Source: SAR202 cluster bacterium (lineage in GTDB: Bacteria; Chloroflexota; Dehalococcoidia; Lucifugimonadales; VGZY01). Taken from it: DNA of 55,512 nt. Below are positions 18,483 to 29,833 of the stretch, one piece after another. The translations under genes and the position numbers were made by a program. The notes beneath the pieces are model-generated. The model did no database searches. It was not told the origin of the DNA and saw only the letters and a program-made list of their open reading frames with translations. Location: NCBI GenBank assembly GCA_016872355.1, contig VGZY01000010.1, forward strand, positions 1 through 55,512, written 5' to 3'. Numbering within the stretch: the stretch's first letter is position 1; every line of letters begins with the position of its first letter.

Positions 18483-20480
18483 TCACTTCCACTCCATGAC
18501 GACCAGGTCCCATATGCGCAGCACAGGGACGGTGAAGCTGATCGTCTTCGCGTCTTCCTTCAGGTCTGCGATCGAGACCTGGTCCGGGTCCGTCGTGAGG
18601 ATGTTGATGGACTTGAGCGACTTGCCCTTCGGCTTCCGCACCGTAGCGGTGATGCCCTCCACCCGGCGAACGAAGCCGAGCGCGAGGTTCGGCATGTACT
18701 CGTTCTGGTAGGACATCTGGTTTTCATTTTGATGGATCTCGAAATTGATCAGGTGGAGCAGGGTAGCGCCGTTGCCCGCCGTTTCCGTGACATTGATGAT
18801 TGTCGTGTGAGGTGCGTCGACCTTCAGCTGCCAGTCGCCTCTGAGGGCGTAGTCCATTGCCTCCTGGAACTTGGCCACCACCTGCGGCAGGCCTGTCTTC
18901 CAGAAGTCCTCATCGGCGGGGCCGGTGATAAAGGCAGCGCGGCCCTTCCCGTACTCGTGCTTCACAACGGCGTCCGCCTTTTGGCCATAGTGCACGCCGA
19001 AGACCTTCGCCAAGGCGAAGTCCTGCCTGGCCCTGTACTTCTCGTCGTAGAGCGAAGTCACGTTCGTGGCGACGATACTGCCGCCGTTCTCGACGTACTT
19101 CGTGACTGCCGCCGCCTGCTCGTCGCTCATACAGGCCGAATTCGGCAGCACCACAACCCGGTAGCCGTGGTCGCCTCTTACAAGGTCCTCGTCCAGCACC
19201 ACGTTGTACGGCAGGTGCATCTCTACCAGCGCCTGAGAGAAGCCCTGCACGTTCATCGGAAGCTCAGCCTTCTCCTTGCCGCCGCTAAGGGACATCGCGG
19301 CGTGGTCCGGCAGGTACCAGTTGATTGTGGGCATGGAGATGTGCATCGCCACGTCCGCAACCGGCTTGACCTCGGCGAAGTACTGCGGGTGCTGCTGGAG
19401 GAACTGGTAGTGCTGGCGTATGGCAGCAGACTTTTCTTTCTCGCGCGACAGCCCGGCTGCCATGATGTGGTGCGTCGCGCCGTTGAACGCCGATGCCTCT
19501 GCCAGTCCGACGCGCATCTGGTCCGGCGTGTACGAGCCTGGCTTGTTCATCCTGTACCAGGTCGGCGTGTCCTTGAGTCGAGAGCCGTACTTCCAGTCGG
19601 TCACGGCGTGGATAGCGCGCGGCGTGCCGCCGGAGGGTGTGGCCTCCATCCTTGGGGCGCCGCTGCGCTCCAGGAGAAGCAGGTCCACCTTGTCCGCGAT
19701 CATGTTTGTGGCCGAGCCCTTTGCGCCGCCGCCGCCGGCCCAGGGCGGCGCGACGTTGGGGTAGACGAGCAGGTCCGGCTTCTGCGAATGGGCGTACTTG
19801 ACGAGAATGTCCATTGCGTCAGTGAAGTACTTGTCGCGGAAGTTGATGAATGCCTGCCAAATGGGGTCGTCCCAGTCCGGCGTAACCGGTAGCTCGCACT
19901 CCCAGCCGATCGCCTGCTTCGCGTACTCGCGGAACTTCACGGCGCAGACCTTGCAGTAGCACGCCCAGCCGCTGGACGCGCCCTCCTCCTTGGAGCCCTT
20001 TAGCTCGCGTGGAATAAAGCAGTTATCGTAGAAGAGCGCGTCCGGCTTGTACTCCAGCGCCTTCCTGATCATCTCGTTCCGGTATTCCAGCCAGCCGGGG
20101 TTATTGAGGCAGCCCATATACCTGTCCGGAGCTCCGCTGTAGAGCGCGGGCTTGCCGTTGGCGTAGGTCATGATCCACTCTCTGGACTCCGGACGCTCGT
20201 ACCACATCGTCTTCCAGTTGATGTTGGTGAACTTCATGTAGAAGCTCACCATCAGGCCGCGCTTGTGCGCATTTTCCACAAACGCGGGCAGCAGCCGCCA
20301 GTTCCAGCGCTCCTTTTCCTCGCCGGAGGTGCCGGTGAAGCTGGTGAGGATCAGGCTCGCGTCGATTTCCTTCGCGACGTCGAGCGCCGCATCGCCGTAG
20401 CTGTTAACGTCGTCCTTGATGTAGCGGTGGCTTATGACCGTAATCGGAGTCTTCGCTGTTGCAATCGTCTTTGTCGCCAT
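18483..20480 (-). CDS. Glycoside-hydrolase-like protein (TIM barrel plus trimerisation-like domain)
   Basis: 665 residues from the ATG at 20480, preceded by an AGGAGG-type site six nt upstream, so it is likely translated independently although no stop separates it from recN. Residues 1-380 resemble a hypothetical-glycosidase TIM barrel: SFYMKFTNINWK, PDALFYDNCF and a CYCKVC cluster. The next ~200 residues (LPYNVVLDEDLV, VVVLPNSACMSDEQ, YVENGGSIVATN) match the glutamine-amidotransferase-like trimerisation domain of GH42 beta-galactosidases. A C-terminal beta-sandwich ends at the stop. No signal peptide. Substrate unknown; the catalytic acids are not assigned. Confidence 0.75.
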   Translation of the reverse strand: MATKTIATAKTPITVISHRYIKDDVNSYGDAALDVAKEIDASLILTSFTGTSGEEKERWNWRLLPAFVENAHKRGLMVSFYMKFTNINWKTMWYERPESREWIMTYANGKPALYSGAPDRYMGCLNNPGWLEYRNEMIRKALEYKPDALFYDNCFIPRELKGSKEEGASSGWACYCKVCAVKFREYAKQAIGWECELPVTPDWDDPIWQAFINFRDKYFTDAMDILVKYAHSQKPDLLVYPNVAPPWAGGGGAKGSATNMIADKVDLLLLERSGAPRMEATPSGGTPRAIHAVTDWKYGSRLKDTPTWYRMNKPGSYTPDQMRVGLAEASAFNGATHHIMAAGLSREKEKSAAIRQHYQFLQQHPQYFAEVKPVADVAMHISMPTINWYLPDHAAMSLSGGKEKAELPMNVQGFSQALVEMHLPYNVVLDEDLVRGDHGYRVVVLPNSACMSDEQAAAVTKYVENGGSIVATNVTSLYDEKYRARQDFALAKVFGVHYGQKADAVVKHEYGKGRAAFITGPADEDFWKTGLPQVVAKFQEAMDYALRGDWQLKVDAPHTTIINVTETAGNGATLLHLINFEIHQNENQMSYQNEYMPNLALGFVRRVEGITATVRKPKGKSLKSINILTTDPDQVSIADLKEDAKTISFTVPVLRIWDLVVMEWK

Positions 20481-22220
20481 GCAGGCCTCCTGCCGATTTT
20501 GTAGCAACGTAGCACCGGCATTACCGGGTGTCAACGGGCGTGGCCCCCGCTTCCATTCCGCCGCCAGGGCCAGCATTTCCTTTGCGCTGTCCCGTGTGGC
20601 CTGACCTGTGTAGCCGATCATCCGGCTTATCTCTTTCACGCGTTCCGCGCCGGTCACGCGGTCCGCCCCAAAGACCGTCCTGCCGGCCTCCTGGTATTTC
20701 GCCACCATCACGTGGTTGTCCGCGAAAGCCGCAATCTGAGGCAGGTGGGTCACACAGACCACCTGGCGCCGCCGAGAGAGCTCCCATAGCTTCTTCCCGA
20801 CTGCGAAGCCCGCGGCCCCGCCTATGCCGGCGTCAATCTCGTCAAACACGAGCGAAGACATGCGGTCCGCTTCGGCGATGCTGACCCTGAAGGCCAGCAT
20901 GAGCCTGGAGGTCTCTCCGCCTGAGGCGATCCTGGCTACCGGCTGGACGGGCTCACCCGGGTTGGCGGATATAAGGAACTCTACCTTGTCTATCCCCGTT
21001 GAAGAGAGCCCGCCGAAGCGCTCTACCTGGATTTCCACCCTGGCGCCGGCCATCTCAAGCGCGGCAAGCTCGGCCTGCACGACGCTGCCGAGGCGCTGCG
21101 CACCTGCTGCACGCCGGCCTGAAAGGTTCTCTGCGATGGCTATTGCTTCCGAGAGCAAAACGCTCTCACGCCCCCTGAGCTCCCCGGTCCTTTGCTCGCG
21201 CCCCTCAAGGGACGCCAGCTCTTCTGAAGCCTTCTGCGCGAATGTGATCACGTCCTCAACGGTATCGCCGTATTTCCGTTTCAGGTTGTTGATCAGGTCT
21301 AACCGCTCCTCGATCTCGCTCAGCCGCGCCGGGTTGTACTCGGTCCCATCCCTGTACGACCGTACGGAGCGGGCAAGGTCCTCCGCCTGGAACATGAGCG
21401 ACTCCGCGCTCTCGCGCAGAGGCCTCACGGAGGGGTCGATCTCCTCAATCTGTCCCAGCAGCCTGGCGGCCTTGCGCAGTGACTCAACAACGGCTGCCCC
21501 GGAATTTCCGAGCAGCGCATGCGCTTCCCCTGAAAGTGAGATTAGCCGGCGCGCGTTGCTGACGATTGCATGCTCCTGCGCCAGCCTCTCATCTTCGCCG
21601 GGTGAGAGCTTCGCCCCCTGTATTTCGCCGAGCTGGTATTCAAGCAGGCCGACGCGCCGCGCAACTTCCCTGGAGCTCATGTCCATGTCGGCTATCTTCT
21701 TGCGGACCGCCAGAAGCTCGGAGAATTTCCGCGCCACGGCCGAACGAAGTTCCCACAGCCCTGCGTAGCGGTCAAGGATGTCGATGTGCTCGGCCACGCG
21801 CATGAGGGACAGGTGCTGTCCCTGCCCGTGGATGTCCACGCGGCGCTCGCCCAGCCTTTTCAGGGTAGCCAATGGGGTTATCCGACCGTTAAGGCGGGAG
21901 ACGCTCCGCCCGTCGGCTGAGATTTCACGCGAGACGATGATCTCTTCTTCCACGTCCCCGAACCCCATGTCACCAACCGCGGCCTCCACCGCAGGGCGAA
22001 TGTCACCCCCAACGCTGATGACCGCTTCGAGCCGCGCTTTCCCCGCGCCGGCCCTCACCATACCGCCGTCGGCCTTCGCCCCAAGCAGCAGGCCAATGGC
22101 ATCCACAATAATCGACTTGCCCGCGCCGGTCTCCCCGGTCAGCACTGTAAACCCTTCGCCGGGCTCAAGCTCGGCGCTCCCGATGATGGCGAAGTCCCTT
22201 ATTGTGAGCAGCTTCAACAT
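18483..22220 (-). CDS. recN: RecN continuous in frame with a glycoside-hydrolase-like protein
   Basis: One frame of 1245 codons. Residues 1 to about 560 are RecN, the SMC-like ATPase of double-strand-break repair: Walker A GETGAGKS at 29-36, RLNGRITP and the HGQGQH motif, a coiled coil, ASGGETSRL and SLVFDEIDAGIGG near the C-terminus, and VTHLPQIAAFAD. RecN normally ends soon after the region SAKEMLALAAEWK seen here. Instead no stop occurs, and after a Pro/Gly-rich join the frame continues into an unrelated protein at residue 581 that has its own ribosome site. Either the RecN stop codon was lost, making a fusion or readthrough product, or an assembly change removed it. The RecN start is at 22220. 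Confidence 0.85.
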   Translation of the reverse strand: MLKLLTIRDFAIIGSAELEPGEGFTVLTGETGAGKSIIVDAIGLLLGAKADGGMVRAGAGKARLEAVISVGGDIRPAVEAAVGDMGFGDVEEEIIVSREISADGRSVSRLNGRITPLATLKRLGERRVDIHGQGQHLSLMRVAEHIDILDRYAGLWELRSAVARKFSELLAVRKKIADMDMSSREVARRVGLLEYQLGEIQGAKLSPGEDERLAQEHAIVSNARRLISLSGEAHALLGNSGAAVVESLRKAARLLGQIEEIDPSVRPLRESAESLMFQAEDLARSVRSYRDGTEYNPARLSEIEERLDLINNLKRKYGDTVEDVITFAQKASEELASLEGREQRTGELRGRESVLLSEAIAIAENLSGRRAAGAQRLGSVVQAELAALEMAGARVEIQVERFGGLSSTGIDKVEFLISANPGEPVQPVARIASGGETSRLMLAFRVSIAEADRMSSLVFDEIDAGIGGAAGFAVGKKLWELSRRRQVVCVTHLPQIAAFADNHVMVAKYQEAGRTVFGADRVTGAERVKEISRMIGYTGQATRDSAKEMLALAAEWKRGPRPLTPGNAGATLLQNRQEACMATKTIATAKTPITVISHRYIKDDVNSYGDAALDVAKEIDASLILTSFTGTSGEEKERWNWRLLPAFVENAHKRGLMVSFYMKFTNINWKTMWYERPESREWIMTYANGKPALYSGAPDRYMGCLNNPGWLEYRNEMIRKALEYKPDALFYDNCFIPRELKGSKEEGASSGWACYCKVCAVKFREYAKQAIGWECELPVTPDWDDPIWQAFINFRDKYFTDAMDILVKYAHSQKPDLLVYPNVAPPWAGGGGAKGSATNMIADKVDLLLLERSGAPRMEATPSGGTPRAIHAVTDWKYGSRLKDTPTWYRMNKPGSYTPDQMRVGLAEASAFNGATHHIMAAGLSREKEKSAAIRQHYQFLQQHPQYFAEVKPVADVAMHISMPTINWYLPDHAAMSLSGGKEKAELPMNVQGFSQALVEMHLPYNVVLDEDLVRGDHGYRVVVLPNSACMSDEQAAAVTKYVENGGSIVATNVTSLYDEKYRARQDFALAKVFGVHYGQKADAVVKHEYGKGRAAFITGPADEDFWKTGLPQVVAKFQEAMDYALRGDWQLKVDAPHTTIINVTETAGNGATLLHLINFEIHQNENQMSYQNEYMPNLALGFVRRVEGITATVRKPKGKSLKSINILTTDPDQVSIADLKEDAKTISFTVPVLRIWDLVVMEWK

Positions 22221-26806: not shown

Positions 26807-27466
26807 ATGACTGAACGGTCGCTTCCAGATAACCTGCAAAAGCACGACTCAAATATCCCTTCCGACGGGGCGGCAGGCCCGGGCGCAGAAGACATGCTGC
26901 TCGTGGACGGCGCTCGCAAGGGCGATATCTCCGCATTCAACACCATCGTTGAGCGTTACCAGTCGCACGTCCTGAACCTCTCCGCAAGGATAGTCGGCGA
27001 CCGCCACATGGCAGAGGACATCGCGCAGGAGACGTTCATATCCGCGCACCGTGCCCTTGGAGGCTTCCGCGGCGGAAGCCTCCGGGCGTGGCTCCTCAGG
27101 ATCGCCTCGAACCTCAGCTACGATCACCTGCGCTCCAGCAAAAGGCGCCCGGCGGACTCGCTTGACGAATCGATGGAGCACCCCGGATTCGCGGTTCCCA
27201 CCGAAGGCCCCGGCCCGGAGGAACAGGCAGAGCGCAAGGACCTGAACGCGTATATCCAGAAGGCGATACTGTCCCTGCCGCCGGACCAGCGGACAGTGCT
27301 TGTGATGATTTACGTCCAGGGCCTCAGCTATGAGGAGACCGCCGAGTCCACGGGGGCATCGCTCGGCACCGTGAAATCGCGCCTGAGCCGCGCCAGATCG
27401 AGAGTCAGGGAGGTCCTTTTGCAACACCGGGAACTTTTGCCTGACCAATTCCGTCAGGTACATTGA
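26807..27466 (+). CDS. ECF RNA polymerase sigma factor
   Basis: 219 residues from an ATG with no strong ribosome site; longer in-frame versions reach back to 26705. Sigma region 2 is at about residues 40-105 (ALGG preceded by DIAQETFISAHR, and WLLRIASNLSYDHLR), and region 4 at about 150-205 (LPPDQRTVLVMIYVQGLSYEETAE, LGTVKSRLSRARSRVRE). There is no region 3, as in group 4 sigma factors. It directs polymerase to envelope- or stress-type promoters. The anti-sigma gene follows 10 nt later, and a GGAACTT-type promoter lies in front of the next gene. Confidence 0.94.
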   Translation: MTERSLPDNLQKHDSNIPSDGAAGPGAEDMLLVDGARKGDISAFNTIVERYQSHVLNLSARIVGDRHMAEDIAQETFISAHRALGGFRGGSLRAWLLRIASNLSYDHLRSSKRRPADSLDESMEHPGFAVPTEGPGPEEQAERKDLNAYIQKAILSLPPDQRTVLVMIYVQGLSYEETAESTGASLGTVKSRLSRARSRVREVLLQHRELLPDQFRQVH

Positions 27467-27476
27467 GGTGGTTGCA

Positions 27477-28550
27477 ATGCTCCGATTACTCAAGACTAAC
27501 AAACACGAAAAGCTCCGCGAGCTCCTCTCCTCTTACTCTGACGGACAGGTAAGTAAGGACGAGAAGGCGATCGTCGAGGCGCACCTTGCCACGTGTTCCG
27601 CGTGCACGGCAGAGCTTGCCTCGCTCAAGATGACGGTGGGCCTGCTCAAAGGGCTGCCGCAGATCGCAACGCTGCGCTCCTTCAAGCTCGAGGCCGCGCC
27701 GAAGGCGGTCAAGGTATCGCGCGTCCCGCAACTGATGCTAGGCCTGGCGACGGCAGGCGCCGCGGCGGTATTCATGGTGCTCGTCGTCGGCGATGCCACC
27801 AATGCAATTGTCCAGCGCGGGGAGCTGGAAGAGGCGGCGGCAGCCGCAGGCGCATTCGCCTCTGACATGGCGTCGAAGAGCCCCGCCGAAGACGGCTTGC
27901 AGGGCGGGCCGGGCAATCCGGGCGAGCCCAACAGCTTCGAGGCGGCGACGATACAGTCTCCTGAAATGGCCGCCGCTTCGCCTTCGCAGCTGCGCTCCAG
28001 CGCAGCGGCCCCCGAGGCCCCGCCCGAGCCATCGCCGACAGAAAGCGGAATGGACATCGCCTCGATCTCCCCGGCTGCTCCTGAAGGGACGCCGATGCCT
28101 CCGAGCTTCGCCGCATCCGCGCCGGTCGACGACAAGACGCTCGATTCAACGGACCCGCTGCCGGCGTCGGCAGCTCAAACCACAGGCGCACCCGATTCGA
28201 CGGCTGCATCCGAGGCGATGACGGGCGCTTCCGCGGCCCAACCGGCCGCCGGATCGGGGTTTGCGCCGGAGTCGCCCACGGCGTCCGGAGCAGGCGTCAG
28301 CACTGAACTGCCGCTCACCACGGCCGCAGAGGACACGGCCGTTACCGGGCCGACCGAGGCGCAGCCTCCGGTTTCCACGGGCCGGCAGGCGCCTGGTGAC
28401 GAGCTCGCCGGTGCGCAACCGGCACTGGAGGACGGGTCCGGCCTCGGGCTGCCGCTAAGGCAGCTCCAGATCGCCGTCGGCCTGGCCCTAATCGCCTTGA
28501 TGGGCGCCACGGCCTATATGTTCATGGCCGGCAGGCGAAGGAACTTCTAG
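27477..28550 (+). CDS. Zinc-finger anti-sigma factor with long Ala/Pro-rich outer region
   Basis: 357 residues from the ATG at 27477 with GAGGT upstream. The anti-sigma zinc motif H36-x3-C40-x2-C43 (EAHLATCSAC) is in the first 50 residues. A membrane helix spans about 84-105. An unusually long, low-complexity stretch (about 220 residues, rich in Ala, Pro, Ser, Thr and Glu) follows, and then a second helix near the C-terminus (LQIAVGLALIALMGA) ends in GRRRNF. The pair with the ECF sigma factor predicts that it holds that factor at the membrane until released. The second helix is unusual; most family members have one. Confidence 0.88.
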   Translation: MLRLLKTNKHEKLRELLSSYSDGQVSKDEKAIVEAHLATCSACTAELASLKMTVGLLKGLPQIATLRSFKLEAAPKAVKVSRVPQLMLGLATAGAAAVFMVLVVGDATNAIVQRGELEEAAAAAGAFASDMASKSPAEDGLQGGPGNPGEPNSFEAATIQSPEMAAASPSQLRSSAAAPEAPPEPSPTESGMDIASISPAAPEGTPMPPSFAASAPVDDKTLDSTDPLPASAAQTTGAPDSTAASEAMTGASAAQPAAGSGFAPESPTASGAGVSTELPLTTAAEDTAVTGPTEAQPPVSTGRQAPGDELAGAQPALEDGSGLGLPLRQLQIAVGLALIALMGATAYMFMAGRRRNF

Positions 28551-28563
28551 GAGCGAGAAAAGA

Positions 28564-28606
28564 GCGGCGCGCAGGAAACCTTCATCTCCTGCGCGCCGCC
28601 TTTTTC
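28564..28606 (+). terminator. Terminator after the anti-sigma gene
   Basis: GCGGCGCGCAGGA pairs with its complement (28564-28576 with 28587-28599), 10-nt loop, then CTTTTTCT. Confidence 0.9.
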
Positions 28607-28668
28607 TGTTCCTTGCATCCTGTCAGCCCAAAGTCCTAGTCCATTCGTGAAAATTGCCTCCGAATCGT

Positions 28669-28697
28669 GGAACTTTCTCCGGACGGGCAACGTCATA
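28669..28697 (+). promoter_or_regulatory. ECF-type promoter (GGAACTT-N15-CGTCATA)
   Basis: GGAACTT (28669-28675) is the -35 core known for RpoE-like sigma factors, and CGTC (28691-28694) is a common ECF -10. The spacing is 15 bp. It lies about 75 nt before the SIMPL gene and follows the sigma/anti-sigma pair, so it is a good candidate target of that sigma factor. Confidence 0.65.
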
Positions 28698-28771: not shown

Positions 28772-29833
28772 GTGAACAAGGTAAAGATCTTATTGGCAGG
28801 TATGGCACTGACTTCAGTGGCCCTCGCAGGCATCGCCTGCAGCGATAACGACAACGCGCCGTCCACGCCGGCGGCAGTAGCGACGCCCACGGCAGTATCT
28901 TCCAGCCAGGGCAACGTCCCAGCAGCCCCTTCCGAACAGACTGGCGCCGTTGCGCCGAGCCTACCTATCGGACAGGGCTCCACAGGCAACCCGGTAACTG
29001 ACATTGCTACGCGAGAGGTCAGCTCACCAGACGGCCCTACCGTCGGCACCAGCGCCTATCCGGGCAGGTCTTCGGACGGGTCTTACCCGGTCAGCCACGG
29101 CGCCGGGTATACAACCCCGACGTTCTACCCGCAATACCAGTATGGAGCGAGCGGCATGCCCACAGGCATCTGGGCGACAGGCAAGGGGACCGTAACGGTT
29201 GACCCTGACCTGGCGATCATCAACATTGGCGTAGACTCCAGCGCGGCAACTGTGGAAGAGGCGCGCAGCAAGGCGGCCACGGCGATGAACGCGATCATCG
29301 CGGCAGCCAAGGGCCACGGCATTGCCGAGGCGGATATCCAGACGCGGTACTTCAACATCTACCCTGAGTACCAGTGGGTGGAGGAAAAGCCTGCCGACCC
29401 GCGCCAGAGCTACGTCGGCGGCAAGCAGGTCCTCGTCGGTTACCGCGTGCAGAACCAGGCTGTCGTCAACGTCCGCACAATGGACAAAGTCGGCGATGTG
29501 ATCGACAGCGTCGCGACGGGCGGCGGAAATGACACGAGGATCGACGGCGTCCAGTTCACGGTAGAGGACCCTTCGAAGTACACGAACCAGCTCCGCGAGC
29601 AGGCGGTGAAGGAAGCGCAGGAGACTGCAGCGCATTTCGCATCGATCACCGGCCAGACCCTCGGCAAGGTGCAGTACATAACTGAGACCAGCGGTTACCA
29701 GCCGCTCGTCCAGAACTTCGCTGAGGATGCGGCCGTAAGGTCCGCGGCAGGGACCCCGGCCCCCATGACGCCGATCAGCACCGGGACGCTGGAGCTGACG
29801 CTGACGGTCCAGGCAGTGTTTGGGGTCCAGTAG
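28772..29833 (+). CDS. SIMPL (DUF541) domain lipoprotein
   Basis: 353 residues from a GTG at 28772 with AGGAGG at 28761-28766. The signal peptide ends in LAGIAC, so it should be lipid-anchored; residue -3 is Gly, a weak lipobox. A low-complexity Ala/Thr/Pro/Ser linker of about 100 residues leads to the SIMPL domain, about residues 130-350 (WATGKGTVTVDPDLAIINIGV, SSAATVEEARSKA, YRVQNQAVVNV, and the C-terminal ELTLTVQAVFG). The function of SIMPL proteins is poorly known; some act at the envelope. An ECF-type promoter precedes it. Confidence 0.85.
   Translation: MNKVKILLAGMALTSVALAGIACSDNDNAPSTPAAVATPTAVSSSQGNVPAAPSEQTGAVAPSLPIGQGSTGNPVTDIATREVSSPDGPTVGTSAYPGRSSDGSYPVSHGAGYTTPTFYPQYQYGASGMPTGIWATGKGTVTVDPDLAIINIGVDSSAATVEEARSKAATAMNAIIAAAKGHGIAEADIQTRYFNIYPEYQWVEEKPADPRQSYVGGKQVLVGYRVQNQAVVNVRTMDKVGDVIDSVATGGGNDTRIDGVQFTVEDPSKYTNQLREQAVKEAQETAAHFASITGQTLGKVQYITETSGYQPLVQNFAEDAAVRSAAGTPAPMTPISTGTLELTLTVQAVFGVQ

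Follow-up and report, generated by a model that had tools for sequence, protein, structure and literature searches.

The ECF sigma factor gene of this window, by which the whole 55,512-nt stretch of DNA analysed is meant, most probably encodes an envelope-stress regulator that activates the genes for its anti-sigma factor, a SIMPL protein and lipoproteins, but not its own gene (we put the probability of this reading at about 0.86). Its predicted promoter code, deduced from comparison of related loci, is GGAAC-N17-CGT(C/T), and two such promoters would lie at the locus itself, one ahead of the anti-sigma gene and one ahead of the SIMPL gene (Table 1). The source genome comprises 3.07 Mb in 133 contigs. 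In another part of the window, the minus strand holds a single ORF of 1245 amino acids (18483-22220), which by eye consists of RecN fused in frame to an unrelated protein starting with MATKTIATAK; this is either a true fusion or the result of a lost stop codon.

Table 1. Features of the sigma/anti-sigma/SIMPL locus, in window coordinates
Feature	Position	Strand	Basis or remark
ECF sigma factor gene, 219 aa	26807-27466	+	Pfam Sigma70_r2 and Sigma70_r4_2; upstream start codons also possible
Promoter-like GGAAC-N17-CGTC for the anti-sigma gene, within the last sigma codons	27430-27455	+	Motif match, conservation, codon test
Ribosome-site-like GAGGTGG 5' of the anti-sigma ATG	27465-27471	+	From sequence
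Anti-sigma gene, 357 aa, N-terminal zf-HC2, two predicted membrane segments	27477-28550	+	Pfam, hydropathy
Strong terminator-like hairpin with T tract in the anti-sigma/SIMPL gap	28563-28605	+	Hairpin listed for the - strand; T tract read on +
Promoter-like GGAACTT-N15-CGTCATA (GGAAC-N17-CGTC) of the SIMPL gene	28669-28697	+	Sequence; syntenic conservation
SIMPL/DUF541 protein, predicted lipoprotein	28772-29833	+	Pfam SIMPL 2.9e-48

The sigma protein holds the two domains that define ECF (group IV) sigma factors, with Sigma70_r2 at residues 47-114 and Sigma70_r4_2 at residues 149-199, and no match to the sigma3 model in Pfam. It scores above the NCBIfam sigma70-ECF cut-off, and its region 4 aligns with RpoE/AlgU-type sigmas. 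The adjacent anti-sigma gene typical of ECF sigma factors is represented by the zf-HC2 protein encoded directly 3' of it, whose binding to the sigma factor is predicted. This protein resembles the Class I anti-sigma factors (ASDI), as far as the available portion of PMC7406223 describes them, in combining an H-x3-C-x2-C motif (here HLATCSAC, within a zf-HC2 match of 6.1e-9) with a membrane anchor, and differs from them in that a long low-complexity stretch links its two predicted membrane segments. According to hydropathy, the N-terminal zinc-finger domain is followed by a membrane segment that begins near residue 86, the low-complexity stretch and the second hydrophobic segment; the stretch between both segments covers some 200 residues and is rich in Ala, Pro, Ser and Gly. 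Among the 119 related loci that carry the 3'-end motif described below, 102 have two predicted membrane segments in the longest ORF that follows it. H-x3-C-x2-C is present downstream in 82 of the 119, and in 78 a broader H/C pattern occurs in the longest downstream ORF, within its first 110 residues. Zinc and non-zinc forms are mixed within some ASDI groups, in the same portion of that source (PMC7406223). The SIMPL protein, whose GTG start was picked by its signal peptide, matches the SIMPL/DUF541 family (PF04402) with 165.3 bits against a Pfam cut-off of 25.2, and stands apart from that family as a predicted lipoprotein tied to a putative ECF regulon.

The initial annotation had pointed to GGAACTT-N15-CGTCATA before the SIMPL gene, just after the sigma/anti-sigma pair, as a candidate target promoter for the adjacent sigma factor. 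The sequence is present, with GGAACTT at 28669-28675, CGTCATA at 28691-28697 and 15 nt separating the heptamers. In the available parts of the sources, GGAACTT is given as the -35 box of RpoE (PMC8103513) and CGTC as a common ECF -10 element (PMC3426412). The spacer of N15/16 proposed for a genome scan was wrong, since GGAAC and CGTC are 17 nt apart, and such a scan would miss the pre-SIMPL site itself. The enrichment that had been anticipated is not seen for the loose form GGAAC-N16/17-CGTC, which occurs 121 times genome-wide against 120 in the reversed control; it is found only for the stricter form GGAACTTTT-N13-CGTC, with 80 sites against 7 in the reversed control across 117 genomes of the order. 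Within the window, there are two matches to the loose motif where 0.85 are expected, a number that 18 of 100 shuffles also reach. Counts of the loose motif were consequently rejected as evidence, being equal to the reversed control and within chance inside the window. The motif is not above chance by number, but it is far above it by position and conservation. The stronger of the two sites, at 27430-27455, had gone unmentioned. The target-promoter assignment itself gains support, at the level of sequence comparison, from footprinting with a fixed 17-nt spacer, and from the recurrence of the same motif before the anti-sigma gene, a second SIMPL copy and lipoprotein genes of relatives.

Orthologs of the sigma factor were found in 57 of the 117 genomes of the order (E<=1e-25), and relatives in 158 of 301 genomes of the phylum (E<=1e-36). 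The 122 loci compared comprise 54 from the order (62 sigma matches, minus seven paralogs with E values of 5e-28 to 5e-26, including 2.5e-27 in G009, and minus the truncated G109) and 68 from the phylum outside the order, a non-random set made up of the 28 best-scoring new loci and 40 others hand-picked to cover families. A search of genome contigs for related loci returned only distant ECFs of other phyla, which were reused as negative controls, and a plasmid search with the sigma factor returned one 37% match. In G233, a genome of the same phylum, the M chain of a photosynthetic reaction centre is identical to PDB 8ydm_M over 307 residues. We take this structure to be from Chloroflexus aurantiacus, and the phylum hence to be Chloroflexota.

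Within the order, the SIMPL gene lies 3' of the pair in 47 of the 54 loci, and GGAAC-N17-CGT[CT] occurs in the 900 nt ahead of the first aligned SIMPL codon in 35 of these 47, with every other spacer from 10 to 24 nt represented 0 times or once. The exact motif is absent before the remaining 12 SIMPL genes, among which L131 holds a plausible one-mismatch form and 11 have no convincing one; after shuffling, 5 of 47 pre-SIMPL regions contained a one-mismatch site. A second SIMPL copy of the genome (48% identical; L147, G000:C58:1-6000) is preceded by GGAAC-N17-CGTC between a terminator-like hairpin and the start. In four loci of family f7 (L088, L089, L091 and L093), the pre-SIMPL site carries GGAACCCC or GGAACCTA instead of GGAACTTT, and the site at the 3' end of the sigma gene ends in CGTT.

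The site in the 3' end of the sigma gene is better conserved than the one before the SIMPL gene. Between the end of the region-4.2 helix and a point 45 nt beyond the stop codon, GGAAC-N17-CGT[CT] is present in 119 of the 122 orthologous loci (100 with CGTC and 19 with CGTT), each other spacer from 10 to 24 nt occurs in 0 or 1 locus, and dinucleotide-preserving shuffles yield a mean of 0.13 and a maximum of 2. The three loci without the exact motif are L139, with N16 and an altered tail; L259, where GGTC replaces CGTY; and L261, with none. The site is found in 0 of 24 ECF sigma factors from other phyla and in 0 of 7 paralogous sigma factors of the order. Upstream of the sigma gene, none of the 120 loci with 450 nt of sequence ahead of the first aligned sigma codon carries the motif, which indicates that the sigma-type site faces the inhibitor rather than the sigma factor. 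The upstream site of positive autoregulation is thereby missing from these 450 nt; such autoregulation is usual among ECF sigma factors and not obligatory, as stated in the accessible text of PMC8103513. Instead, the window shows an ECF motif within the sigma coding sequence, 21 nt from the ATG of the anti-sigma gene, the arrangement of the PrshA and rseA P3 promoters discussed below. This intragenic site probably activates the anti-sigma gene only.

The strict motif also delineates a wider candidate regulon in the order. In addition to the 80 sites with a spacer of 17, only 11 have a spacer of 16 and 2 a spacer of 18. When positions were compared with the sigma matches, 48 of the 80 fell at the sigma locus and 32 elsewhere. 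Nineteen of these 32 off-locus sites precede a lipobox protein, judged from the first 60 residues of the longest ORF starting at most 350 nt from the site and with a PROSITE-type pattern taken by us as the lipobox definition; among controls, 127 of 3000 random positions in the same loci and 99 of 3000 in the regions of the sigma locus qualified, as did 60 of 654 long ORFs. One of the 19 cases (L216) resembles an ordinary signal peptide more. Among 20 products scanned against Pfam, which correspond to 18 of the 32 off-locus sites and two from the source genome, the domains found were DUF4349 with or without PKD, vWA/VIT, DUF2330, clostripain, alpha-2-macroglobulin, AIM24, DUF6970 and DUF5671, while several products had no match. 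The 8 nt after CGTC, which are outside the search pattern, are 71% AT across the 32 sites. In the source genome, the strict motif with one mismatch gives eight sites, two at this locus and six more, against four in the control; several lie within coding sequence, so this set holds false positives. One of the six (G000:C21) lies ahead of the gene for a large, apparently secreted protein whose PKD match stays below the cut-off.

Since the motif class also occurs upstream of two other ECFs of the order, its assignment to this sigma factor rests on position and co-occurrence. The sites could be true ECF promoters with another ECF sigma factor of the cell as their main reader, a reading that we regard as unlikely. 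In its favour, both the -35 and the -10 element belong to a class common among ECFs in the available parts of the sources (PMC8103513; PMC3426412), and two paralogous ECF genes (L125 and L126) carry GGAAC-N17-CGTC 70-73 nt before their first aligned codons, in the usual layout of upstream autoregulation. The motif class is therefore not exclusive to this sigma factor, and other ECF sigma factors in these genomes may read it. However, the off-locus sites track the sigma gene studied here, in that the 57 sigma-positive genomes hold 28 of the 32 (3 control sites) and the 60 that lack a sigma match hold 4 (4 control sites). Among the sigma-positive genomes, G009 and G040 contribute two sites each and have only weak, possibly paralogous sigma matches. 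The presence of the 3'-end site in nearly all orthologs and in none of the paralogs also argues against another main reader.

Could the 3'-end motif be a mere shadow of a conserved protein tail, and the SIMPL site a coincidence? The sigma factor ends in an ELLPxxFR tail that is indeed conserved, with ELL invariant in the 25 rows of the protein alignment and P and R nearly so, and AlphaFold, run with a 25-row alignment, gives it middling confidence (81 and 63 for the last two block pLDDT values, pTM 0.43) rather than clear disorder. The codons speak against this explanation. Where the motif sits in the usual frame (115 loci), the codon preceding GAA covers 11 amino acids and has G as its last base without exception (33% in the gene body), and the Glu codon is GAA in all 115 (35% in the gene body). 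The Arg codon of the -10 element is CGT in 107 of 107 (13% in the gene body), and the codon following Glu is CTT in 88 of 115, whereas CTT makes up 11% of the Leu codons in the gene body. Moreover, the motif is read in a different frame in four loci (L108, L260, L262 and L291), and CGTY lies wholly past the sigma stop codon in 12 (such as L095, L241 and L281) and overlaps it in two. Across the loci, relative to the last base of the stop codon, CGTY ends anywhere between 62 nt upstream and 16 nt downstream. Taken together, the fixed synonymous bases, the loci in other frames and the placement of CGTY at or after the stop indicate that conservation acts on the DNA. As the same motif and spacer also recur before SIMPL and lipoprotein genes, an origin of the site at the protein level is highly improbable and was rejected on codons, frames and stops. 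As judged from the sequences compared, the protein has changed while the DNA motif and its spacing stayed. In one locus (L282, G277:C49), an in-frame TAG lies within the motif and codons for RFRLYI still follow, the DNA motif being kept past the stop. An action of the 3'-end sequence in RNA, for instance in translational coupling of sigma and anti-sigma, would fit its place at the junction of both genes in 119 of 122 loci, but it can be practically discarded, because the distance to the stop codon varies while the GGAAC-CGTY spacing is constant, and because the two-part motif also stands, at other places, before genes that have no sigma gene ahead of them.

With the site regarded as a promoter, a further step is likely, if less secure than the promoter code: the ELLPxxFR tail would exist mainly because its codons form the promoter of the sigma factor's inhibitor, in a dual-coded circuit with negative feedback only that extends over the phylum, and in which the DNA motif outlives frame shifts and early stops in the sigma protein.

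In the circuit that we infer, including promoter activity, recognition by the sigma factor, start sites, signal and feedback behaviour, the sigma factor would read GGAAC(TTTT)-N17-CGT(C/T) promoters and be held at the membrane by its anchored partner. The sigma/anti-sigma bicistron would be made at a basal level from another promoter, the sigma factor itself being probably produced at a basal rate, as no site of its own type lies upstream of it. An envelope signal would free the sigma factor from its anchor, and the free sigma factor would fire the promoter embedded in its last codons, yielding anti-sigma factor alone and thus negative feedback without positive autoregulation. It would also fire the promoter located after the terminator, and thereby produce the SIMPL lipoprotein, together with those of further lipoprotein genes, until the extra anti-sigma factor closes the response. 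Motif positions suggest a leader of about 15 nt with the GAGGTGG ribosome site for the anti-sigma mRNA, and one of about 70 nt for the SIMPL mRNA.

What began as a guess from a single site has become a testable promoter code, GGAAC-N17-CGTY, with a candidate regulon of envelope lipoproteins. The sigma family to which both apply is widespread in one phylum, with relatives in 158 of 301 genomes. For ECF41, another group containing Chloroflexi members, a different motif has been published, according to the available part of PMC3426412. Prediction of ECF targets leans on over-represented motifs of autoregulated ECFs, in the accessible text of a review (PMC8103513). The feedback site of an ECF sigma factor can hide within the sigma gene, and is then missed when searching upstream of the operon; if the dual-coding reading is true, part of the ECFs regarded as non-autoregulated may be alike.

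Promoters for anti-sigma genes inside sigma genes are already known in kind, as PrshA and rseA P3 document. Phylum-deep conservation, a fixed 17-nt spacer and sigma-tail codons set by a promoter were found described nowhere in a limited search of titles, abstracts and open-licence full texts. One close likeness is PrshA of Corynebacterium glutamicum, a sigma-dependent promoter in the sigma coding region that serves only the anti-sigma gene. In the available portion of PMC3489674, sigH and rshA are cotranscribed from housekeeping promoters, the SigH-dependent PrshA within sigH makes only rshA, and PrshA is proposed to shut down the SigH response. SigH, however, is described there with a GGAAT/GTT-type motif, a response to heat and disulphide stress, and starts 62 and 66 nt before rshA (PMC3489674), whereas here GGAAC-N17-CGTY lies in the last codons, recurs across the phylum and fixes the codons of the tail. 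A second likeness is the P3 promoter of rseA in E. coli, an ECF-sigma-dependent promoter within rpoE that drives the anti-sigma gene in envelope stress, with a start 228 nt before rseA, according to the accessible part of PMC8595263. Upstream, the rpoE operon has a further promoter that depends on sigma-E (PMC8595263), whereas an upstream site was found in 0 of 120 loci here; the feedback through the inhibitor alone that this implies would depart from the usual positive autoregulation of ECF sigma factors.
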